From Actinorhabdospora filicis (GTDB lineage: Bacteria > Actinomycetota > Actinomycetes > Mycobacteriales > Micromonosporaceae): DNA of 64,000 nt. The stretch is from contig NZ_BSTX01000001.1 in assembly GCF_030269765.1 (NCBI RefSeq), positions 1,619,370 through 1,683,369 of the forward strand, in the 5' to 3' direction. Of the stretch, positions 6,932 through 26,017 are shown piece after piece. The notes beneath the pieces are model-generated. The model worked only from the letters and a program-made list of their open reading frames with translations. It made no database searches and was not told where the DNA came from. The stretch's first letter is position 1. Each line of letters begins with the position of its first letter. The position numbers and the translations under genes are program-made.

Positions 6932-7004
6932 GCCCTCGTAGCTCAGGGGATAGAGCGTCGGTTTCCTAAACCGTGCGTCGCAGGTTCGAATCCTGCCGGG
7001 GGCA
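6932..7004 (+). tRNA. tRNA-Arg (anticodon CCT)
   Basis: A 73-base cloverleaf. The acceptor stem GCCCTCG pairs with CGGGGGC (one G-T pair), D-arm GCTC/GAGC, anticodon loop TTCCTAA giving CCT (reads AGG), and T-arm GCAGG-TTCGAAT-CCTGC. CCA is not encoded. The next gene downstream is a tyrosine integrase, so this tRNA is the probable attachment site of the adjacent island. Confidence 0.95.
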
Positions 7005-7011
7005 CGTGCGT

Positions 7012-7036
7012 AACCGCAGGTCAACGGCCTGCGGTT
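7012..7036 (+). terminator. Terminator hairpin after tRNA-Arg
   Basis: AACCGCAGG (7012-7020) pairs with CCTGCGGTT (7028-7036) around a 7-base loop, followed by a pyrimidine-rich TCTTC. It begins eight bases after the tRNA. Confidence 0.75.
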
Positions 7037-7106
7037 TCTTCATGTCGGGCCACGGGTGGGCCACCGTGGTGCCGTGCGTGGTGCGAACGTTTCTAGCGTT
7101 GAACCC

Positions 7107-8617
7107 ATGGCACCACGCAAGGCCGCTCCGAAGCGCGAGCGGGGCAGCATCGAGACCCTCCCGAGCGGCTCGCTCCGGGTGAAGGTCTACGCGGGCCTGG
7201 ACCCGTCACCAAGCGCCGGGTGTACCTGGATGAAGTAGTACCGCCCGGCCCCAAAGCCGCCCGCGAGGCCGAGAAGGTCCGCACCCGCCTGCTCAACCAG
7301 GTCGACGAACGGCGCCACCCGCGCACCCGGGCGACCATCACGCTGATGCTGGAGCGGTACTTCGAGGACTTCCGCGGCAAGGTCCTCACCCTCAAGAACT
7401 ACCGCGCCAAGGAACGCCGGCACATCCGTCCCCTCATCGGCCACGTGTCCGTCGGCGACATGGATGCCCACGCCTGGGACTCCTTCCACCGCGAGCTGCG
7501 CCGCTGCCGCGTCCACTGCGACGGCAAGAAGCGCATCGACCACCGCACCATCCGCCCCCACACCTGCGACCACCGCTGCCCCCCGCACCAGTGCCGCGGC
7601 CTCGCCGAGGGCTCCCTCCGGCAGATCATGACGATCCTCTCCGGCGCCTTCCGCGAGGCGATCCGCTGGAAATGGATCACCGTCAGCCCCATCGGCCAGG
7701 CCCGCTCCCTCGGCACCCCCGTCCCCAACCCACGCCCACCCAACGCCAACGACGCCGCCCGCATCCTGCGCGCCGCCTGGGAAGACGACCCCGACTGGGG
7801 AATGTTCGTGTGGATCTGCATGCGCACCGGCGAGCGCCGCGGCGAGGTCTGCGCTCTGAAACTCGACCTCCTGGACCTCGACGCCCACTCCCTCGGCGTC
7901 GACTCGTCCATCGCCCAGGACGGCGCCAGGACCTGGGAGAAGTCCACCAAGACCCACCAGAAGCGCCGCACCGCCCTCGACGACATCGACGTCGCCCTCC
8001 TGCGCGCCTACCTCGTCCACCGCGCCCGCAAGGCCGCCGCGCTCGGCGTCACCATCGCCGCTCACGGCCGCCTCTTCTCCCCCGACCCCGACCACGCCAC
8101 CTGGTTCAAGCCCTCGACCGTCGGCCAGCGCTTCAAGCGCCTCTGCGACCGCCTCGGCATGAACGCCTCCCTCAAACGCCTCCGCGAGTACGCCGCCACC
8201 GAACTCATCGCCGCGGGCGTCGACATCCGCACCGTCGCCGGCCGCCTGGGCCACGGCGGCGGCGGGACGACCACGATGAAGACGTATGCGGCGTTCGTCG
8301 CCGAAGCCGACCAGCGCGCGGCAGCGCTGACCAGCCCGCGAGTCCCGGTCTCGGAGAGCTGGCTCCAGGAGCTCGTCGACGGCCAGGAGCGTTCCGCACT
8401 GCCAGAGGAACCGTCCGAGCCCTACGAGAAGATCGCCGTCGACCTGGCCGGAGCGATTCGGGCGGGGATCCTCACCAGCGGCTCCCGGCTGCCCTCCATG
8501 AAGGAGCTCGCGGCGCGCTACTTCGTCGCGCCCAGCACCGTCCACCGCGCCGTCGACGTGCTCAAACGCGACGGCCTGGTGGCGGCAAGACGCGGAGTTC
8601 CGGTCACCGTTCAGTAG
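7107..8617 (+). pseudogene. Tyrosine recombinase/integrase with C-terminal GntR-like domain, frameshifted
   Basis: Residues from ATG 7107 (RGSIETLPSGSLRVKVYAGL) form the arm-binding start typical of actinomycete integrases, but the frame runs into a stop at 7238. The rest of the protein (YLDEVVPPGPKAAREAEKV onward) continues one frame away from about 7205, so one base is missing near CCCGTCACC. The downstream part has a Cys/His-rich insert (CRVHC ... CDHRCPPHQC), the catalytic Arg region MRTGERRGEVCAL, LRLxxY-type box II with Lys where HxxR has its first His, GRLGHGGGGTTTMKTYAAF with the Tyr, and a GntR-type winged helix (LPSMKELAARYFVAPSTVHRAV) at the end. Either decayed or a sequence error. 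Confidence 0.85.
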
Positions 8618-9019: not shown

Positions 9020-9055
9020 TCTCCCCATCACGCAATGCACAAAGGAGAGAACCCA

Positions 9056-9484
9056 ATGATGAATCCTGTGGCCTTCAGCGTGTTCGCCGCCGTCCTCTAC
9101 GCGTTACACCCGGTCGCCGACTACTGGATGCAAGGCGACCACCAGGCCGCGCACAAGGCAGACCACAACCTGCATGGACACCTCATGTGCGGGTTGCACG
9201 TCGTCGGCTACACGCTGACATGCGCGATAGGCGTCGCGATCGCCTCGACCCTGTTCGCGCTCCCCATCCACCCCGGTGCCGCAGCGGCAGCGCTCGTGGT
9301 GAACGCCGGGACGCACTACCTCGCCGACCGGCGCACCTTCCTCGCCTGGGTCGCCGAGCGCGTCCGGCACGGCGTCTTCTGGCGAAACGGCGGGGCCCCA
9401 CAGCTCGATCGGCTTTCCATATGGGAGTCCTACTCGCCTGTGCCGGAATCCTCGCTACCTAGCCTCAGACAGACTTCAGACTGA
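9056..9484 (+). CDS. Small membrane protein (DUF3307-like)
   Basis: About 142 residues with two or three hydrophobic helices. HPVADYWMQGDHQAAHKADHN and a later THYLADRR resemble the HF(L)AD-type repeats of DUF3307 proteins carried by many actinomycete plasmids and AICEs; family assignment is from pattern memory. AAAGGAGAG at 9041-9049 supports ATG 9056 over the upstream ATG at 9035. The role is unknown, but the family often sits beside plasmid transfer genes. Confidence 0.6.
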   Translation: MMNPVAFSVFAAVLYALHPVADYWMQGDHQAAHKADHNLHGHLMCGLHVVGYTLTCAIGVAIASTLFALPIHPGAAAAALVVNAGTHYLADRRTFLAWVAERVRHGVFWRNGGAPQLDRLSIWESYSPVPESSLPSLRQTSD

Positions 9485-10761: not shown

Positions 10762-11598
10762 TCAAGGTTGCCCGAAATCCACCAACCGGCTCCGCTCATT
10801 CCCCGCCAGTGGCCACCAGATTCGTCCAGCTGATATAGGCACAAACGACTGACTGGTCGTAGCTACGGTTATCCCCTGCTCTGCATCAGAGGCCATGAAC
10901 CGAAAATTCGCCTCCCGTGTCGCGTTCGGGAAGACGAACACGACCACGCCTTCATGGTCAAGCGGCGTGTCGTACAGCCTCAGCTTTCGCACCACGCGCA
11001 CCAGCGATTCAGTGCCGGTGTTGTACTCGAGGAAGAACCTTCGGCTGAGGCCGCCCTCGCGCCAGACCCAGCTGGCGTCGGGCCGGGCGAAGCCGTAGGT
11101 GAGGGCAACGCTGTCAGGCTCGCCTAGACACTCTTCGAGCTCCGCGCCTTCGGTGTGGCGTGCGTGCTCGTAGAGGTGAGAGAGCACCTCGTTCACGCCC
11201 AGGAGGTGCTCCATGTCCCGGCGCGCCGTGAGCTTGCCGAGCCGTGCGGTCGTGTCCGGGACGCGCGGGGGCTTCTCGCCTCGGGAGTGGGCGTAGATCG
11301 TCGCTCCGACGTGGCCCAGCGTGTAGCGCCAGGCTTGGGAGCCTGGACGCACCGACCGTCGGAAGCGCGTCACCACACCCAGGCCGCGGAGCACTGTGAG
11401 GCGGGTTCGTGCTCGCGTCTCCGAGGGGAAGAACATCCTGGTGATCTGCGGGAGCAGAAGGACCTGGTGCTGACCGAGGGCATCGATGAGGTTGAGGTCG
11501 CGGTCGGTCAAGTGCCGGTGGACCGCGATGATTTGTTCGCCTGTTATGGGCTTCTGTCTGGGCTCCTCCAATGTCGCCTCCAGGTGGTTGACCTGCAT
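10762..11598 (-). CDS. Replication-relaxation family protein
   Basis: About 278 residues. A winged-helix-like N-terminal half (LTDRDLNLIDALGQHQVLLLPQIT, then RTRLTVLRGLGVVTRFRR) and a C-terminal half containing EYNTGTESLVRVVRKLRLY match the Replic_Relax family found on conjugative plasmids and AICEs, thought to bind DNA and assist replication or mobilisation. ATG 11598 is chosen because GAAGGTGA precedes it. The gene supports AICE ancestry of the island. It is 117 bases upstream of the HEPN gene on the same strand. Confidence 0.75.
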   Translation of the reverse strand: MQVNHLEATLEEPRQKPITGEQIIAVHRHLTDRDLNLIDALGQHQVLLLPQITRMFFPSETRARTRLTVLRGLGVVTRFRRSVRPGSQAWRYTLGHVGATIYAHSRGEKPPRVPDTTARLGKLTARRDMEHLLGVNEVLSHLYEHARHTEGAELEECLGEPDSVALTYGFARPDASWVWREGGLSRRFFLEYNTGTESLVRVVRKLRLYDTPLDHEGVVVFVFPNATREANFRFMASDAEQGITVATTSQSFVPISAGRIWWPLAGNERSRLVDFGQP

Positions 11599-11859
11599 GT
11601 TCACCTTCACTCGCCCGACTTGGCACCGACGGGTCACAGGCCTGGTGACCTGCTGACTCGTTCGCCGGATTGACCCGGTTCGAAGCGGGTGGACGAGAGT
11701 AGCTCTGGGCGGGCACGCGCAGTCGCCATCGCCAGGTCTCCCCGGGCACAAGTCAGGCACAGACCGGCTGCCTGCTCGTTTCTGGTTCTGCCCGGTCGAG
11801 GTCGTGCCCGCTCAGCCGCGTGTCCGAGGCAAGATCCTCTGCGGAGTAGCCTCAACGCG

Positions 11860-12975
11860 ATGCCGGATACGTCCTCACCGAAAGCGCTTTCGGCAGACGA
11901 GCGTGAGTGGCTGGCCACCCGAGCCCGCCTTACTGACGAGCGCTTCGAGCTCGGCGTCCAGGCCGCGGAGCTCTATCCCGGCCTGCTCAAGGTGGAGGGA
12001 ACGCCCCTGCTCAGCCGAAGTGAGTGGCTGCCGGAGAAGCCACTCCCGCTGGACGCCGTCAAGCTGATGTCGGTCCCTGACGCACCGCCGCTCCCTCGCC
12101 TTCCACTCGATACGCCGACGGTCGTTCCGCACGGCTACAGCTCGTACGTGGACGCACTGCTCGCGCTGACGCCAGCGAGGCTGGAGAACAGGTCCACCTA
12201 TCGACTCCGGGCCGCCGATCTCCGGCGTCCGGCGGCGTGGATGTCATTCAGCCGGGGCCGCTATTCCGATGGGCTCGACACCGGTGAGGCCGCAGCCCAC
12301 GAGTACGCCTCAGGCCGGTCGGCCGTGCTGCGCGAAGCGATCGGCGACCCGTGCGATCCGGCACGCCGGCCGACGAACATCGCCATCAGCACGCTCACCA
12401 TCCGCGAAGACCGCAGCACGGGCGAGGCGACATTCATCCTGCACTGGCGGGATCCGGCGAAGGTCGGGCACGCGGGTGGGCTGTTCCAGGTCGCGCCCGC
12501 CGGGATCTTCCAGGCCTCCGGCGAGGCCGACTGGAACGACATGAACGACTTCAGCCTGTGGCGCTGCATGACGCAGGAGTTCGCCGAGGAGCTCCTCGGA
12601 CGGCCCGAGGAGTACGGCAGTGAGCTGGCGCCGATCGACTACGCCTCCTGGCCCTTCGCCGTCGCCATGAATGCCGCCGTGACCTCTGGAGCAGCCTCCG
12701 CCTACTGCCTGGGCCTCGGCGTCGACCCGCTCACCTTCGCCACGGACCTGCTCACCGTGGTGGTCTTCGACGGCCTGGTCTTCGACGAACTGTTCGGGAC
12801 ACTCGTTGACGAGAACGCCGAGGGCCTGCTCCTGCGTGGGGACGACGGCAACGTCGGTATCGCCTTCACCCGGGAGAACGTCGAGCGGTACGCCCGGCGA
12901 GAACGGATGCAGGCAGCCGGCGCAGCGCTCCTCGCTCTCGCTTGGCGGCATCGAGAATCCTTGCTGGCCCGCTAA
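11860..12975 (+). CDS. Divergent Nudix-like protein, function unknown
   Basis: About 371 residues. The N-terminal third is unfamiliar; the middle has RPTNIAISTLTIRED, HWRDPAKVGHAGGLFQVAPAG and then TQEFAEELLG. The order (beta strand, Gly-rich loop, E-x2-EE helix) resembles a Nudix fold with a degenerate box: Arg of RExxEE is replaced by Gln and the spacing is altered. I recall similar actinomycete proteins annotated as hypothetical or regulator-like. ATG 11860 is chosen because upstream in-frame sequence looks non-coding. It is divergent from the replication-relaxation gene and faces the GntR/Nudix pair. Confidence 0.6.
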   Translation: MPDTSSPKALSADEREWLATRARLTDERFELGVQAAELYPGLLKVEGTPLLSRSEWLPEKPLPLDAVKLMSVPDAPPLPRLPLDTPTVVPHGYSSYVDALLALTPARLENRSTYRLRAADLRRPAAWMSFSRGRYSDGLDTGEAAAHEYASGRSAVLREAIGDPCDPARRPTNIAISTLTIREDRSTGEATFILHWRDPAKVGHAGGLFQVAPAGIFQASGEADWNDMNDFSLWRCMTQEFAEELLGRPEEYGSELAPIDYASWPFAVAMNAAVTSGAASAYCLGLGVDPLTFATDLLTVVVFDGLVFDELFGTLVDENAEGLLLRGDDGNVGIAFTRENVERYARRERMQAAGAALLALAWRHRESLLAR

Positions 12976-13020
12976 CCGAGTCGGCGGTGACCGGCTCCCG
13001 CAGGTTCATGCGGCCCAAGC

Positions 13021-13266
13021 TCAAGAGGCGTCCGGCCCGGATTCCGGCCCGACGTAGATCTCCGTCCCGTCTGACCGCCAGGCTCGCGTGTATCCGCCAG
13101 ACGGCGCCCAGACCACGAGCATGTCACCCACAACCGAGACCAAGCCGTCGTCCCCACCGGCAGGCCACTCGATGGTGATGGTCGCACCGGCATCCAGGCG
13201 GTGCTCGTCGGCGGTGGGCTCGAACACGACGACGGTGGCTCGATCCGAGCAGACCTTGAAGCGCAT
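13021..13266 (-). CDS. Small hypothetical protein
   Basis: An 81-residue, beta-rich acidic protein without recognisable domain. GGTAGGAGAACT precedes ATG 13266, a good ribosome site. It follows the GntR repressor gene by 35 bases on the same strand, so it is probably the third gene of the nudix-gntR transcript. Ordinary codon use suggests a real gene. Confidence 0.55.
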   Translation of the reverse strand: MRFKVCSDRATVVVFEPTADEHRLDAGATITIEWPAGGDDGLVSVVGDMLVVWAPSGGYTRAWRSDGTEIYVGPESGPDAS

Positions 13267-13301
13267 AGTTCTCCTACCCATCCATCCTGCGGGGTCGGCC
13301 G

Positions 13302-14027
13302 CTACTGCGCGCCTGAGTCGAGACTGCGACGGTAGAGCAGTTCACTTCGATGACCGCTCTTGACCAGGATCGACGCCTCGACCGCGAGGTCCCGATCGGT
13401 GAAGACGACCCGCAGCCGGCGAATGACCGGCACCTCCATGGGGAGCTCCAGAAGCTCCAGCTCCGCGCTGGTCGGAAGACGCACCGTCAGCCGGTCTTCC
13501 ATACGACGCTGTGGATAACCAAGGTCTGCCAGCGCTAGCGGAGCGCCACCCCGGATCTTGCCCGGTAGGGCCAGCGGACTCCCGACCGCGATCGAGGCCG
13601 GGTAGTAGGACCAGATCAGTTCCACCGGTTCCCTGTTGACGCGCATCAGCCGACGGCGAAGCACCGCTTGTTGTCCCGGTTTGAGATCAAGGGCGGCAGC
13701 GACCTCGACAGGCGGACGCGTCGTGCTGACTTCGAGGAGGTCGTAGCCGTACCCGTCGTCCAGGCCCGGCACGCGATACGGGAGGGGTTCGTTCAGCCTC
13801 AGCCTCCGCTCACACACGAAGACGCCACGCCCACGCTCGCCCGCAACCAGACCCTCGTCCTTGAGTGTGGTGAGCGCTCTCTGGACGGTGCTGTTGGCGA
13901 CGCCGTACCCGTCAATGAGCTGCTGGGTCGACGGCAGCGCCGACCTCGGCGGGATCTCACCGGCCATGATCTTCGCTCGCAGGTCAGCGGCGACCCTTTG
14001 ATGGTTAGCGCGCCGGTCACGGGTCAT
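13302..14027 (-). CDS. GntR-family repressor (HutC/UTRA type), KorSA-like
   Basis: 241 residues: an N-terminal winged helix (LPSTQQLIDGYGVANSTVQRAL as recognition region) and a C-terminal UTRA effector domain (PYRVPGLDDGYGYDLLEV ... YYPASIA). The ATG overlaps the stop of the upstream Nudix gene by one base (TGATG), a coupled pair. In the AICE pSAM2 a GntR repressor (KorSA) and a Nudix protein (Pif) form the maintenance and immunity control; similarity of arrangement suggests the same role here, repressing replication and transfer genes. This is inference from gene order. Confidence 0.8.
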   Translation of the reverse strand: MTRDRRANHQRVAADLRAKIMAGEIPPRSALPSTQQLIDGYGVANSTVQRALTTLKDEGLVAGERGRGVFVCERRLRLNEPLPYRVPGLDDGYGYDLLEVSTTRPPVEVAAALDLKPGQQAVLRRRLMRVNREPVELIWSYYPASIAVGSPLALPGKIRGGAPLALADLGYPQRRMEDRLTVRLPTSAELELLELPMEVPVIRRLRVVFTDRDLAVEASILVKSGHRSELLYRRSLDSGAQ

Positions 14028-14500
14028 CAGGTGCGCTTGCCGTGTTCGAGGTAGGCCGGTACGCCGCTCGATGTGGCCTCCAGCGCTGCTGTCAGCCGCA
14101 GGACGAGCCGGTCGATGGTGTACTCGGCGAACCGTTCAGGTGGGACGAACTCGTATCGGACGAGCTCCCGGGTCTCGATCTGGATGGCGTTTCTCTCCTC
14201 GATCGACAGCCGACCTCCATCGAAGACGAACAGCAGCTTGCCGCCCTCCTTGGCCGTCGGTGCCCAGTCCACCACGAGCAGCGGCCCCGGCGAGATCTTG
14301 AGCCCGAGCTCCTCGTGGACCTCTCTGACGCAGGCGTCCTGCGGGCTCTCCCCGCGTTCGACGTAGCCGCCGGGGATGTCCCAGAAGCTCTTGTAGGTCG
14401 GCTTCACGAGCATCACCGACCCGGCCTCGTCGGTGAACAGCGCGCCCGCGGCCATGACCGCCTGGGCCGGGTCGTGTTCCTGCGTCTCGGGACCGGTCAC
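14027..14500 (-). CDS. Nudix hydrolase, Pif-like
   Basis: About 157 residues with a complete Nudix box: GGYVERGESPQDACVREVHE followed by ELGL satisfies G-x5-E-x7-REUXEEXGU. Start is GTG 14500 (GGGA just upstream) or ATG 14524 (8 more residues, weak site). Nudix proteins hydrolyse nucleoside diphosphates linked to another moiety; on the AICE pSAM2 a Nudix protein (Pif) blocks transfer into cells already carrying the element. The overlap with the GntR gene supports that reading. Last gene of the island before the helical-repeat operon. Confidence 0.8.
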   Translation of the reverse strand: MTGPETQEHDPAQAVMAAGALFTDEAGSVMLVKPTYKSFWDIPGGYVERGESPQDACVREVHEELGLKISPGPLLVVDWAPTAKEGGKLLFVFDGGRLSIEERNAIQIETRELVRYEFVPPERFAEYTIDRLVLRLTAALEATSSGVPAYLEHGKRT

Positions 14501-14526
14501 GGTTCCCAGCGTATGCCCCGGCATTC

Positions 14527-18029: not shown

Positions 18030-19691
18030 TCAGGTGGTGGGCTGGGTGACGTTGCCCTGGACGTTGCCGACGGCGCCGATGGCGTTGCCGGTGTTGTTCT
18101 GGCCGGCGACGCCGACGTTGATGTTGGTGCCGGGGGCGTGGTTGATGACGCCGTTGTTGATGATGGTGGTGATGCGTTCGCGGAGTTCGCCGAGGTCGAC
18201 TTTGCCCTCCAGGAACTCGAAGAGCGCCACGAACAGCTGTTCCTCCAGGATGGCGACGTACTTGTGGGGGTCGCGCCACTGGAAGTAGCTATGGAAGTCG
18301 TCGTCGGCGCCGAGGGCGCGGATGCTGGTCTTGGCGCCGAAGTCGGTGGTGCCGGGGAGGTTCTTGGCCAGGCCGCGGGAGTAGGCGGCGAGGGCTTTGC
18401 ACAGGACGAGGGGGCTGCGGCCCAGGATGCGGGGGAGGCGTCCGGCGGCGCGCAGGCCGTCGAGGACGACCGCTGCGGGGCTGGTGTCGCGGGGGTCGTC
18501 GAAGACGTGGAAGTCGGCGCGGGTCGGGGGCATGGCGAACGCCTGGAACTCCATGTACAGGGTCTTGCCCTGGAGTGCGGTGTGCAGGTAGGCGGTGGTC
18601 GCGAGCTCGCCGTTCCAGGAGATCACCTGGCACTTGAGGAAGTGGCGGGCGTTGCCCGTGGGGAGGTGCATGATGCCGCGGATGTCGGCGTCGGAGGGCT
18701 GGGTCCTGTCCCCGGAGTAGCAGTCGCGACCGGGCACCATGAGGTTGTCCTCGATGGTGAGTCCCGGGATCGGCGCGAAGCGCCGGGTCTCCTCGCGCAG
18801 GGCCGACAGGGCGTTCCCGATGTGGGTGATGAGCTCGTGGACGTCGAAGCCGGGCCAGTCCTCGTCGCCGGTCGTGTTCGGGTTCGCCCGCGGGGGCTTC
18901 AGCTTGAACGCCCACCGCCAGGTCTCCAGCCGGGCGCCTTCGTGGGCGAAGGGGTCCGTCCCGGCGTAGATGACCGTGGACGCGTGTTGCTCCCGGTGGG
19001 CGCGTTCGATGGCGGCGTTCCCGGTGAGCGTGACGGGGACGCCGTTCTTGATCTTGATGAGCTGGAGGCGGCGGAGGCAGCCCATGGTGAAGACCAGCGC
19101 CAGCATCAAGAGCAGCACCGGCAGAGAGGTGCCGATCAGGCTGAAGATCACGTTGAGCGCGCTCCCGAGCGGGCCCGAGCCGCCCAGCGCGGGCGGCGAC
19201 AGGGCCAGCGAGGTGAGCATCATGGCGACGGCCGACATCAGCAGCGGCACGGCGGCCATGCCGAGGACCAGGAACAGGATGAGCCGGCCGAGCATGCCCC
19301 GCCGGTACTCCTCCCGGCCATCGCGGATGTAGCCGACGGTGTCGCGCACGAGCTTGACCGCCAGTACCGCCAGCTGCCAGATCACCAGCACGACCACGAG
19401 GCTGTTCAGCAGGCTCGGGACGCCGCAGACCAGGATCACCGTGATCGCCATCAGGACGCCGGCCTCGATGAGGGCGAGATTCCGGGCGTTCCTCGCGTGG
19501 GCGAGGACGGTGGGCGTGTCGGCGCCGGCGTAGGGCGCGATGGCGCTGCGGCGGTCGTCGTAGACGTCCCGCAGGACCTTGTCCCGGTACGCGGCGTCGA
19601 GGAACACCCCCGCGCTCAGGTGACGGGTGGCGAGGTTGTGCGACGGCGGAACGGCCGCCTGCGGCTGCGCGCTGGTCGTCAGGTGGGTCAT
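18030..19691 (-). CDS. Multi-pass membrane protein with C-terminal Asn/Gly-rich signalling-type motif
   Basis: 553 residues. After a polar N-terminus there are about four membrane helices (between residues 65 and 200, e.g. LNSLVVVLVIWQLAVLAV and FLVLGMAAVPLLMSAVAMM), then a soluble region of about 300 residues with no recognised fold, then a C-terminal 43-residue tail, INNGVINHAPGTNINV followed by GVAGQNNTGNAIGAVG. The tail aligns with a stretch of the upstream nucleosidase-like protein. Such Asn/Gly repeats recall bacterial amyloid signalling motifs. ATG 19691 lies 16 bases after the upstream gene. It could be a membrane-disrupting effector or a membrane anchor. Confidence 0.7.
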   Translation of the reverse strand: MTHLTTSAQPQAAVPPSHNLATRHLSAGVFLDAAYRDKVLRDVYDDRRSAIAPYAGADTPTVLAHARNARNLALIEAGVLMAITVILVCGVPSLLNSLVVVLVIWQLAVLAVKLVRDTVGYIRDGREEYRRGMLGRLILFLVLGMAAVPLLMSAVAMMLTSLALSPPALGGSGPLGSALNVIFSLIGTSLPVLLLMLALVFTMGCLRRLQLIKIKNGVPVTLTGNAAIERAHREQHASTVIYAGTDPFAHEGARLETWRWAFKLKPPRANPNTTGDEDWPGFDVHELITHIGNALSALREETRRFAPIPGLTIEDNLMVPGRDCYSGDRTQPSDADIRGIMHLPTGNARHFLKCQVISWNGELATTAYLHTALQGKTLYMEFQAFAMPPTRADFHVFDDPRDTSPAAVVLDGLRAAGRLPRILGRSPLVLCKALAAYSRGLAKNLPGTTDFGAKTSIRALGADDDFHSYFQWRDPHKYVAILEEQLFVALFEFLEGKVDLGELRERITTIINNGVINHAPGTNINVGVAGQNNTGNAIGAVGNVQGNVTQPTT

Positions 19692-19707: not shown

Positions 19708-20877
19708 CTACTTCGCGTTGATCAGGGTCTGGACGGCCTCGATGGCCTGCCGCACGCCGGTGAGCGCGGCGGCGAAGCTGCCGATGGAGCGCAGGGCGGC
19801 CAGGACGCGGCCGGATTCGGGCCTGCCGCCGCGGACGCTGGTCTCCAGCTCCCGGACCGCGTGCTCGTACTCCGCGTCGCGACCGGCGATCGCACCGGCG
19901 TGCGTGCTCAGCAGCGCCAGCAGGCGCTTGATGGCGACCCGCAGCTCGTCGAGCTCCGTGGGGGCCAGCGGCGTCCACTCGATCCGCACGTCCCCGTGCG
20001 AGGTGCCGACCGTGCCGACGGTGTTCCCGCTGTTGCCCTGCCCCCCGATCCCGAGGTGGGCGTTACCGCCGCCGGAGTTCTCGATGCCGTTGTTGACCAT
20101 GACGGGTTCACCGCTCTCTCGGGGCGTGACGGGACGGGGTTCGGTCCGGCTGAGCAGTTCGAAGGCGAAGGCGGCGGCGTGACGGGCCGCGCGCGGCTGC
20201 CACACGCGATCGCCGTCAGAGGTCTTGTCGCCGAGGAGATCGGAGACTCCGCGCAGGACGATGCCGTCGACGCCGTCGTTGGCGCGCACGGCGGCGAGGA
20301 AGCCGAAGCCCTCGGTCTCCACGCCACGGGCGTCGTCGCAGCGCCGCTCGATGAGGCGGGCGGTGTGGGAGCCGCTGCCGGTGACGACCTTCCCGCCCGA
20401 GGCCAGCGGCGCCACGTACGCCCTCGGCATCGGGTCGGGCGGCTGCGCCAGGCGGCCGGGCCACGCCGCGTCGATGGCGACGGTCTGGGCGATGGCGACC
20501 AGGCCGGCGGCCGAGTGCAGGCTCTTGACCCGGGAGTAGGAGCCCTCATCGTCGTCGCGTCCGGCCTCGTAGTCGTAGACGCAGTCGGCGGCGATGACGT
20601 CGCCGTGGCTCACGTACCGCCCGCCGGCGATGCCCACGAGCATGGCCACCTGCGGGTCGAGGGCGGTGATCATGCGCTGGACCTGGATCGCCGCCGCCGT
20701 GTTCTCGCGGCCGATGAAGGCCAGCACGACCTTCCAGCCACCCAGTGAGGACGTCTCGTAGTGCACGCCGCCGAGTTCCTCCCGGCTCACCGGCCCCGGT
20801 GAGAGGTCGCGAACAGCGCCGTATTCGAGGGGAAGCGCGGCGCAGAGCACCGCCATGGGTCGTCGGGCATTTGCCAT
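19708..20877 (-). CDS. PNP/MTAN-like nucleosidase-family protein with internal signalling-type motif
   Basis: 389 residues. Residues 1-245 form a purine nucleoside phosphorylase/MTA-SAH nucleosidase fold: MLVGIAGGRYVSHGDVIAAD, GVETEGFGF (E187, E189, ribose-binding position) and RGVSDLLGDK (catalytic-position D213). Residues 260-300 carry MVNNGIENSGGGNAHLG and GQGNSGNTVGTVG, matching the membrane protein's tail; residues 302-389 are helical. Proteins of this fold serve as ATP- or nucleoside-cleaving effectors in phage defence (e.g. Detocs) and as N-terminal domains of fungal NLRs. GGGGGA precedes ATG 20877. First gene of the operon. The motif insertion argues against a simple salvage enzyme. 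Confidence 0.78.
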   Translation of the reverse strand: MANARRPMAVLCAALPLEYGAVRDLSPGPVSREELGGVHYETSSLGGWKVVLAFIGRENTAAAIQVQRMITALDPQVAMLVGIAGGRYVSHGDVIAADCVYDYEAGRDDDEGSYSRVKSLHSAAGLVAIAQTVAIDAAWPGRLAQPPDPMPRAYVAPLASGGKVVTGSGSHTARLIERRCDDARGVETEGFGFLAAVRANDGVDGIVLRGVSDLLGDKTSDGDRVWQPRAARHAAAFAFELLSRTEPRPVTPRESGEPVMVNNGIENSGGGNAHLGIGGQGNSGNTVGTVGTSHGDVRIEWTPLAPTELDELRVAIKRLLALLSTHAGAIAGRDAEYEHAVRELETSVRGGRPESGRVLAALRSIGSFAAALTGVRQAIEAVQTLINAK

Positions 20878-20897
20878 CCTGTCCCCCAGGTGATCTT

Positions 20898-20916
20898 TAC
20901 TGTCATCCCGACAGTA
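20898..20916. promoter_or_regulatory. Operator palindrome 1 (nucleosidase operon / NrtR-type gap)
   Basis: TACTGTCATCCCGACAGTA is a perfect dyad with 7-base arms and a 5-base centre, lying 21-39 bases upstream of the nucleosidase start codon. It shares CTGTC-N5-GACAG with a second copy 48 bases away, centre to centre, in the same divergent gap. Confidence 0.65.
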
Positions 20917-20947
20917 TTAAGGGGACGATATGACCCGGAGTCACATA

Positions 20948-20962
20948 CTGTCAATAGGACAG
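20948..20962. promoter_or_regulatory. Operator palindrome 2 (NrtR-type gene proximal)
   Basis: CTGTCAATAGGACAG is a dyad with 5-base arms around a 5-base centre, 23-38 bases before the ATG of the Nudix/winged-helix regulator. It repeats the half-sites and spacing of palindrome 1. Confidence 0.6.
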
Positions 20963-20985
20963 CAAGAACGGGTAGGGTGCCGATC

Positions 20986-24428: not shown

Positions 24429-26017
24429 TGAGGACCGTCCACATCGGACGGCAGAGGGACGGGCGCATCGACCTCGACGCCGACGTGAACACCTACCTGA
24501 GCGCCTTCAAGATCGCCGACACCTTCCCCGGCAAGCCGGTCACCATGCGGCACCTGCTGACCCACACCGCGGGCTTCGACTCGGCCACCTTCGACATCGC
24601 CGTCACCGACCCCGCCGACGCGCCCGCGCTGGAGCGGGTCGTCGCCGACGCGCAGCCCGAGCGGCTGCGGAAACCCGGGAAGCTGGCGGCCTACGACAAC
24701 TACGGCGTCACGCTGGCGGGCTACCTCGTCCAGGTCGTGTCCGGCGAGCCCTTCGCCGACTACGTCGCGAAGAACGTGTTCACGCCACTGGGCATGAGCG
24801 GCAGCTCCTTCCGGCAGCCGCACGGCCTGGATCTGGTCATGGCCAAGGGATACCGGCCCGACGGCGACGGGTACACCCCGTCGCGCGGGCAGTACGGCGG
24901 CTGAGCCCCGACCGGCGCCGGGACGGTGTCCACGCCCGCCGACGTCGGCCGGTTCATGACCGCCCAGCTCACCCGCGACCCGCGCCTGGGCGAAGGCGTC
25001 GCCGAGGCCATGCAGGCCCGCCAGTTCGGCGCCGACCCGCGCGTCCCCGGCCTGGGCTTCATGTTCGAGGAGCGTCCCCGCAACGGGCACCGGGTGCTGT
25101 TCAAGGACGGCGACGTGCCCGGCTACCACGGCAACCTCGCGCTGCTGCCCGAACAGGGCTTCGGGATCTACGTCGTCGTCAACGGCGAAGGGACCGACGG
25201 GGTCGGCTCCTGGGCCGGCAAGCGCGTCATCAACGACGTCCTCGACCGCTACTTCCCCGGCGGCGCACCGGTCACGGCCGTGCCCGCGACCGGGCTGGAC
25301 CGCTACGAGGGCACCTACCGCAGCACGCGCGCCAGCCGCAGCGACCTGTCGGCCGTCACCGGGCTCACCGCGCCCGTGACCGTCGAGGCCGACGGCGACA
25401 CGCTGGTCACCAGCGGCCTCTCCCCCGACCCGGCGGTGGAGAGCCAGACGTGGGTGCCGCTCGGCGACGGGCTCTTCGGCGAGCGCGGCGGCCAGGGGCT
25501 GCTCTTGTTCGACGCCGACGGCGTCCTGCACGCCGGAGCCGATCCGGGGCAGGCCTACGAGAAGCTCGCCTGGTACGCCTCGCCCGCGCTGCACCTGCCG
25601 CTGCTCGGCCTGGGCGTCCTGGTGCCGTTCCTGGCGTTCCTGGCGATCCCCGTGACGGCGCTGGTGCGGCGCAAGCGTCCCTCACCGGGACCGTGGTCGC
25701 GCGCCGCGTGGTGGGCCGCCTGGCTGGCCTCGGCGCTGGTCACCGCCTTCGCGGCCGGTTTCGCCGCCGTCTCCGGCGACGGCAACGCGCTCAACGAGGC
25801 GGTCATGCTCGGCGCGGGCTCGATGGTCGCGCTGACCGTGCTGGTGACGGTGACGGTCTTCGCCACCGCCGCCGTCCTCGCCGGGGCGGCCGGCGCGTGG
25901 TGGCGGCGGTGGGGATCGGTGGCCGGACGCCTCGGGTACAGCCTGATCGCGGTGTCGCTGCTGGCGTTCGTGACGGTGGCGCTGACGTATCACCTGGCGA
26001 GCGCGCCGTTCGCCTAG
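24428..26017 (+). pseudogene. Broken beta-lactamase-family serine hydrolase with C-terminal membrane helices
   Basis: The reading frame starts abruptly inside the family pattern (GRIDLDADVNTYL, then RHLLTHTAGFD), without the signal peptide or the SxxK nucleophile motif that should precede. YDNYG (the YxN motif) is present. A TGA at 24902-24904 interrupts the frame; the same frame continues (STPADVGRFMTAQL) with GYHGNLALLPEQG, a lipocalin-like region and about four membrane helices to 26017. So the gene has lost its N-terminus and carries one nonsense codon. Its start abuts the eRF1-like stop codon, marking the deletion point. Confidence 0.8.

Follow-up and report, generated by a model that had tools for sequence, protein, structure and literature searches.

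A candidate NrtR-family repressor with paired putative operator sites beside a nucleosidase and membrane-protein operon in Actinorhabdospora filicis

In Actinorhabdospora filicis, the gene for a regulator of the NrtR family diverges from an operon that encodes a nucleosidase and a predicted membrane protein, and two near-identical palindromes lie between them. In our main reading the regulator represses both the operon and its own gene, and the two operon products form an effector pair joined by matching motifs. We put the probability of this main line at about 0.55, a figure that does not extend to all inferred steps taken together. Comparative analysis supports the family of the regulator, the palindromes with their recurrence and position, the operon, the nucleosidase fold, its catalytic residues and the matching of the motifs. 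All positions refer to the window, the whole 64,000-nt stretch of DNA that was analysed, and the features are collected in Table 1.

Table 1 Features of the regulator and nucleosidase locus (window positions).
Feature	Position	Strand	Description
HEAT-like protein, 1147 aa	14565..18008	-	21 nt downstream of the partner gene, possibly co-transcribed
Partner protein, 553 aa	18030..19691	-	Three hydrophobic, probably transmembrane N-terminal stretches (hydropathy); motif at C-terminus
Partner C-terminal motif	18045..18152	-	About residues 514-549; matches nucleosidase linker motif
PNP/MTAN-fold nucleosidase, 389 aa	19708..20877	-	Catalytic domain; disordered linker that bears the motif; helices at the C-terminus with weak likeness to DUF5955
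Nucleosidase linker motif, G/N/Q-rich	20005..20094	-	About residues 262-291; matches partner's motif
Palindrome 1, TACTGTC-N5-GACAGTA	20898..20916		20 nt ahead of nucleosidase start; proposed operon operator
Palindrome 2, TACTGTC-N5-GACAGCA	20946..20964		21 nt ahead of regulator start; proposed auto-operator
NrtR-family regulator, 233 aa	20986..21687	+	NUDIX domain with intact Nudix box and NrtR winged helix

A preliminary description of this DNA had called the regulator an NrtR-type protein combining Nudix and winged-helix domains. This is borne out by Pfam matches above cut-off to NUDIX (PF00293, 5.7e-20) and NrtR_WHD (PF21906, 2.3e-16) and by the nearest solved chain, 3gz5 (E 6e-29), which we take to be the Shewanella NrtR; the AraR structure 5bs6 is also among the solved relatives. 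Against NF050029, the NCBIfam equivalog for NAD-metabolism NrtR, the protein scores 116.9 bits, well below the cut-off of 400. The genome encodes three NrtR_WHD proteins, and the closest paralogue (61% identity) lies in a 12-kb region without a nucleosidase. In a tree of 57 homologues the regulator groups with a paralogue from its own genome, L044 (support 100/94). The 27 nucleosidase-linked regulators in this tree are not one clade, given that four changes are needed and at least two are forced by well-supported branches; they are clustered, with 0 of 500 shuffles as low in changes.

Ligand-contact positions were transferred from passages of PMC4666351 via alignments to solved relatives. Arg30, Arg84 and His133 of the regulator, invariant in all 57 homologues, correspond to BtAraR Arg34 (SoNrtR Arg41), Arg86 and His131, with roles as given in those passages. 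The Nudix box fits GX5EX7REUXEEXGU exactly, and a slightly looser form fits 25 of the 27 nucleosidase-linked homologues. An intact-type box is also present in 21 of the 30 regulators without a nucleosidase link, so it is no mark of this system. Because its box is intact, the regulator may hydrolyse its own ligand; the box is called impaired in NAD-type NrtR regulators in parts of PMC4666351. The same passages list ADP-ribose, NAD or L-arabinose as ligands within the family, so the ligand cannot be assumed, and ADP-ribose is best regarded as a tentative candidate suggested by the conserved pocket.

The two copies of CTGTC-N5-GACAG that had been described as lying 48 bases apart between the two starts are confirmed, as CTGTCATCCCGACAG (20900-20914) and CTGTCAATAGGACAG (20948-20962), 48 nt from start to start, between the ATG codons of the divergent nucleosidase (20877, minus strand) and regulator (20986, plus strand) genes. 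When extended, palindrome 1 is a perfect 19-bp inverted repeat and palindrome 2 has one mismatch. Starting the regulator at GTG 20890 would lengthen it by 32 aa and place both palindromes inside the gene; ATG 20986 is preferred because homologues begin about there. In the 7.22-Mb genome (19 contigs) the exact core has 10 copies, two of them at this locus, and the remaining eight comprise six within predicted genes and two intergenic copies whose neighbours are a MerR-like and a GntR-like gene (gene prediction followed a simple GC3 rule, and the two neighbours were named by eye). TANTGTC-N5-GACANTA with at most one mismatch is found only twice in the whole genome, both times here, so the pair is unlikely to be due to chance and the regulon seems local; a wider regulon was rejected on this count. 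With two mismatches allowed, CTGTC-N5-GACAG shows no enrichment across the window (19 copies vs 39.7 expected), and the palindrome content of the upstream region, taken alone, is moderately unusual (3% of shuffles reach the same level). The palindrome signal is strong because the sites are rare in the genome and recur in relatives. Rfam gave no match at the locus, and a generic promoter scan returned one minus-strand site, with its first hexamer inside palindrome 2.

Recurrence was assessed in 57 regulators, comprising the one in the window, those of 40 regions from its own genome and relatives, and those of 16 loci from a scan for nucleosidase relatives. The 40 regions were taken from the longer regulator matches, two of them own-genome paralogues; most matches below about 40% identity and the contig-end regions G002 and G005 were omitted. 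A regulator was counted as linked when a nucleosidase match above 45 bits lay anywhere in the fetched region, the weakest being L061 (28% identity). The nucleosidase scan confirmed at least 466 relatives, of which the best 80, in 78 loci, were used, and among these best 78 loci 16 had an NrtR homologue (E < 1e-15) in the fetched stretch. By our own tally all 16 belong to the 30 actinobacterial loci and none to the other 48 of these best 78. The remaining 14 of the 30, including all 10 from Streptomyces, have no NrtR in the fetched stretch, so NrtR control appears to be optional.

The pattern TTnnnGTC-N5-GACnnnAA (at most one mismatch) lies upstream of 26 of the 27 linked regulators vs 12 of the 30 others, and at a density of 55 sites in 8,550 nt upstream of the 57 regulators vs 10 in the other 703,125 nt of these loci; these counts are descriptive, given that the pattern was read off those very loci. 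Half-sites vary by locus (CTGTC, TTGTC, GGTC or CGTC), several of the remaining homologues have other inverted repeats by eye, such as CTCA..TGAG, and passages of PMC4666351 describe the binding motifs of the family as highly variable. In another NrtR subgroup (L047-L053, L055 and L057) the regulator is preceded by TCGTC-N5-GACGA palindromes, at times by a pair of them. Divergent loci mostly have two sites (11 of 13) and co-directional loci mostly one (13 of 14; our own tally; Fisher p 7e-5). A shuffle test gives p ≤ 0.03 for only 8 of the 27 linked loci; such scoring is too weak for most single loci, and pooled counts were used for this reason.

For a second set, homologues of the membrane partner served as anchors and gave 20 loci in 19 genomes, mostly the best listed together with four weaker ones, and without G004 (the same as L046), G087, G100, G090, G066 and G091. 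The pattern was fixed beforehand and the promoter windows were sized only after the first site listing; these windows, 10,600 nt in all, hold 14 sites, vs 3 in 248,620 nt elsewhere. A site precedes the operon or the regulator in 7 of 8 loci with an NrtR vs 1 of 12 without (Fisher p 8e-4). Exceptions across the two sets are L093 and L207, with a regulator but no such site, and L206, with sites and no regulator in the stretch. L198, L200, L201 and L209 have their regulator gene downstream of the operon and nevertheless show sites ahead of the operon, which supports control of the operon beyond autoregulation alone. The preliminary description had named absence of the palindromes before orthologues as the outcome that would count against it; they were looked for ahead of related regulators and operons and are present, and the proposal passed this test. 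Repression of regulator and operon is well supported by the rarity of the sites in the genome and by their recurrence and position in relatives, and we consider it very probable from these comparisons that the NrtR-family protein represses both.

The nucleosidase matches PF01048 (3.4e-11), with DUF5955 below cut-off, and its matches to PADLOC effector models are weak (PDC-M60C, 1.1e-12; 'PN-superfamily' effector, 1.8e-7). An AF2 model has a mean pLDDT of 81, with a disordered linker at residues 256-304 (pLDDT < 50), and a Foldseek search with it finds MTA/SAH nucleosidase (1.5e-17) and futalosine hydrolase (2.8e-16). E18, E187, E189 and D213 are invariant in all 36 aligned homologues; the catalytic Glu/Glu/Asp roles are presumably those of E. 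coli MTAN. With this predicted fold and these catalytic residues the protein can be classed as an MTAN/PNP (PF01048) enzyme from sequence and model.

In L097 (6872-10234), L094 (6968-9823) and L085 (6974-9820) the nucleosidase domain heads a larger STAND-like protein with an NrtR regulator adjoining. NB-ARC and TPR domains are Pfam-confirmed in L097 and assigned by eye in L094 and L085; L087 likewise has the nucleosidase domain within a larger protein. In L097 a VFQIGVVHGG motif stands between the nucleosidase and the STAND-like parts.

The partner gene starts 16 nt past the nucleosidase gene. Its product has no Pfam match and no recognised NTPase, and a structure model was dropped as unusable (pLDDT 49). 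Within the family, 40 of 121 genomes, its own included, have a homologue, and the 20 loci of the second set hold a nucleosidase homologue in 15 cases and an NrtR in 8. A different partner, of 663 aa, is found in other relatives; its VQAG-x-x-HG motif is RHIM-like by eye. Small proteins of 110 and 129 aa, each with the partner's motif and a probably helical tail, are encoded beside the partner in L211 (about 7475-7807, partner-gene strand) and L046 (about 9033-9422); L211 has only the membrane protein and the small motif protein, with no nucleosidase match found. The HEAT-like protein, for which HEAT_2 is just below the Pfam cut-off, was rejected as a core part: homologues occur in 37 of 121 family genomes (own included), with no match in the 40 regulator regions or the best 78 nucleosidase loci.

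To the left of these genes, at 6932-8617 and 10762-14524, a tRNA-Arg is followed by genes for a tyrosine integrase with a fused GntR-type HTH, a replication-relaxation protein, a Nudix hydrolase and a GntR-UTRA regulator. Together they resemble an integrative element of actinomycetes, perhaps a degraded one, beside the module. The module might be cargo of such an element, with tRNA-Arg and integrase on its left, but a search of the 64-kb window gave no second attachment repeat. On the other side, at 24430-25600, a reading that resembles a serine hydrolase or beta-lactamase by eye is broken by a stop codon (24902-24904) and resumes at 24926 in a different ORF; it is possibly a pseudogene.

The nucleosidase linker (HLGIGGQGNSGNTVGTVG) and the partner C-terminus (NVGVAGQNNTGNAIGAVG) match each other, and a genome search with the partner finds the nucleosidase gene via partner residues 509-548 (E 9e-4). 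Of 29 loci entered into a pairing analysis, 24 had both proteins. The own partner ranks first in 17 of these 24 pairs, and the summed own score was reached in 0 of 10,000 permutations. Against residue shuffles the own-partner score has a z of 12.3 at this locus and of 14.6-23.3 in six loci of Nocardiopsis type. L087 and L194 show no such pairing, and that of L046 is poor (z 2.9). In the 663-aa partner class the motif is common to the class and not locus-specific, with a weak or absent match in L062, L147 and L154. At the sequence level, the motifs of nucleosidase and partner co-vary between genomes and resemble amyloid signalling pairs, for which matched motifs on neighbouring genes are a search criterion in passages of PMC9815663 and PMC7889193. 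The two proteins probably interact through these motifs; an amyloid nature, suggested by the likeness to such pairs, has a little under an even chance.

We infer a mechanism whose binding, repression, ligand, ligand hydrolysis, amyloid state, substrate and defence role are all to be read as predictions. Dimers of the repressor would occupy both palindromes, at the nucleosidase promoter and at its own, and keep the two promoters closed. The DNA would be released once the Nudix domain binds a nucleotide-type ligand, either ADP-ribose or some related Nudix substrate, and the repressor may hydrolyse this ligand via its intact Nudix box and so reset itself. The operon would then yield the nucleosidase and the membrane protein, which would recognise each other by their matching, perhaps amyloid-forming motifs, and assembly at the membrane would concentrate or activate the nucleosidase. 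Depletion of an adenosine-containing nucleotide would lead to growth stop or cell death, most likely upon infection. This defence or death reading is drawn from the STAND-like nucleosidase fusions, the weak PADLOC effector matches and the literature on PNP effectors, and on these analogies an immune or cell-death role is plausible and slightly favoured.

Could the palindromes merely autoregulate the regulator, with the nucleosidase operon controlled otherwise? The single site before the regulator in 13 of 14 co-directional loci fits such an arrangement, but regulator and nucleosidase are close and on the same strand there (9-121 nt apart) and may be one operon; with palindrome 1 only 20 nt from the nucleosidase start here, and with sites before the operon and the regulator downstream in L198, L200, L201 and L209, we regard it as very improbable. 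The choice of ligand is far more evenly balanced. Another Nudix-type nucleotide has close to an even chance, the candidates being NAD, capped or cyclic nucleotides and products of phage or defence enzymes: ligands differ within the family (ADP-ribose, NAD and L-arabinose in passages of PMC4666351) and the Nudix box is intact, unlike that of NAD-type regulators, whereas the arginine at the phosphate site, that of RDP and the histidine of FDH are all retained, which argues against a different ligand.

It is also conceivable that repressor and nucleosidase are a housekeeping salvage pair for the breakdown of ADP-ribose, MTA or a related nucleoside, with no immunity involved. The MTAN fold and catalytic residues agree with this, as do NrtR members that govern NAD and sugar metabolism (passages of PMC6800001 and PMC4666351). 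Nevertheless, a salvage enzyme is distinctly unlikely in view of the disordered motif that it has in common with the membrane protein, the relative fused to NB-ARC and TPR (L097), the patchy occurrence (partner in 40 of 121 genomes) and the lack of any additional TANTGTC-type site in the genome. Somewhat less unlikely is that the motifs serve as a docking peptide or form ordinary linkers, with no amyloid signal, and that the membrane protein merely anchors the enzyme. Glycine- and asparagine-rich sequence matches easily, and the motif region is disordered in the model, but plain low complexity would not give the z scores of 12.3 and 14.6-23.3 or the partner specificity (0 of 10,000), while docking is still conceivable. 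We retain an NrtR-repressed effector pair joined by its motifs as the main reading.

The regulator resembles MsNrtR from M. smegmatis and SoNrtR from Shewanella in its Nudix and winged-helix domains and its ligand-contact residues. With both domains, a palindrome at its own and at the target promoter and the pocket residues, it can be placed in the NrtR family by sequence. MsNrtR also has a palindrome between regulator and target operon and represses itself, but that palindrome, GTTTTCGA-N7-TCGAAAAC, differs from those here (passages of PMC6800001). NAD-metabolism NrtR proteins have nad gene targets and an impaired Nudix box in the parts of the literature consulted, in contrast to the proposed target, the nucleosidase and membrane-protein operon, and the intact box here. 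For the Nudix-HTH regulators of ARG-centred conflict systems, PMC9503650 (Viruses 2022) proposes an NrtR-like one-component repressor under which the immune operon stays silent as long as ADP-ribose is absent. Genes for ADP-ribosylglycohydrolases, phosphatases and chaperones make up the operons described there, whereas the present one encodes a nucleosidase and a membrane protein. The word 'nucleosidase' is absent from the main text of that paper, and its section 3.8 names neither matched motifs nor operators.

Effectors of Detocs and Cap17, with PNP or (d)ATP-degrading activity, have the same PF01048 catalytic domain as the predicted effector here (passages of PMC10952713), and PNP domains are known or predicted effectors in parts of PMC7159879 and PMC10952713; compared with Detocs and Cap17, the present system has an NrtR gate and a membrane partner in addition. 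BASS signalosomes likewise have a matched short motif on an effector and on the product of an adjacent gene, and the fungal PUASM motif stands on the same PNP_UDP effector domain, paired with NLRs (passages of PMC7889193, PMC9815663 and PMC12261475). In BASS one partner is an NLR, whereas here it is of membrane type and has no Pfam match, and the likeness of the motifs is one of sequence only. Each ingredient is already known, and their combination may be new: a full-text search, which included few subscription journals and covered titles, abstracts and passages, found no NrtR together with a nucleosidase effector and matched motifs. An unlikely but far-reaching version is an amyloid signalosome without an NLR, in which a nucleosidase effector and a membrane hub co-evolve through prion-like motifs and a Nudix repressor both senses and destroys the signal.

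If such an NLR-less signalosome were true, breakdown of NAD or nucleotides by a first defence would arm a second one through a switch that resets itself. One recurring locus would join ADP-ribose-type sensing, nucleotide-cutting effectors and matched-motif signalling. With a concrete candidate operator and a defined pair of genes, it can be put to a direct test in a laboratory actinobacterium whether breakdown of NAD or nucleotides induces immune operons in bacteria.
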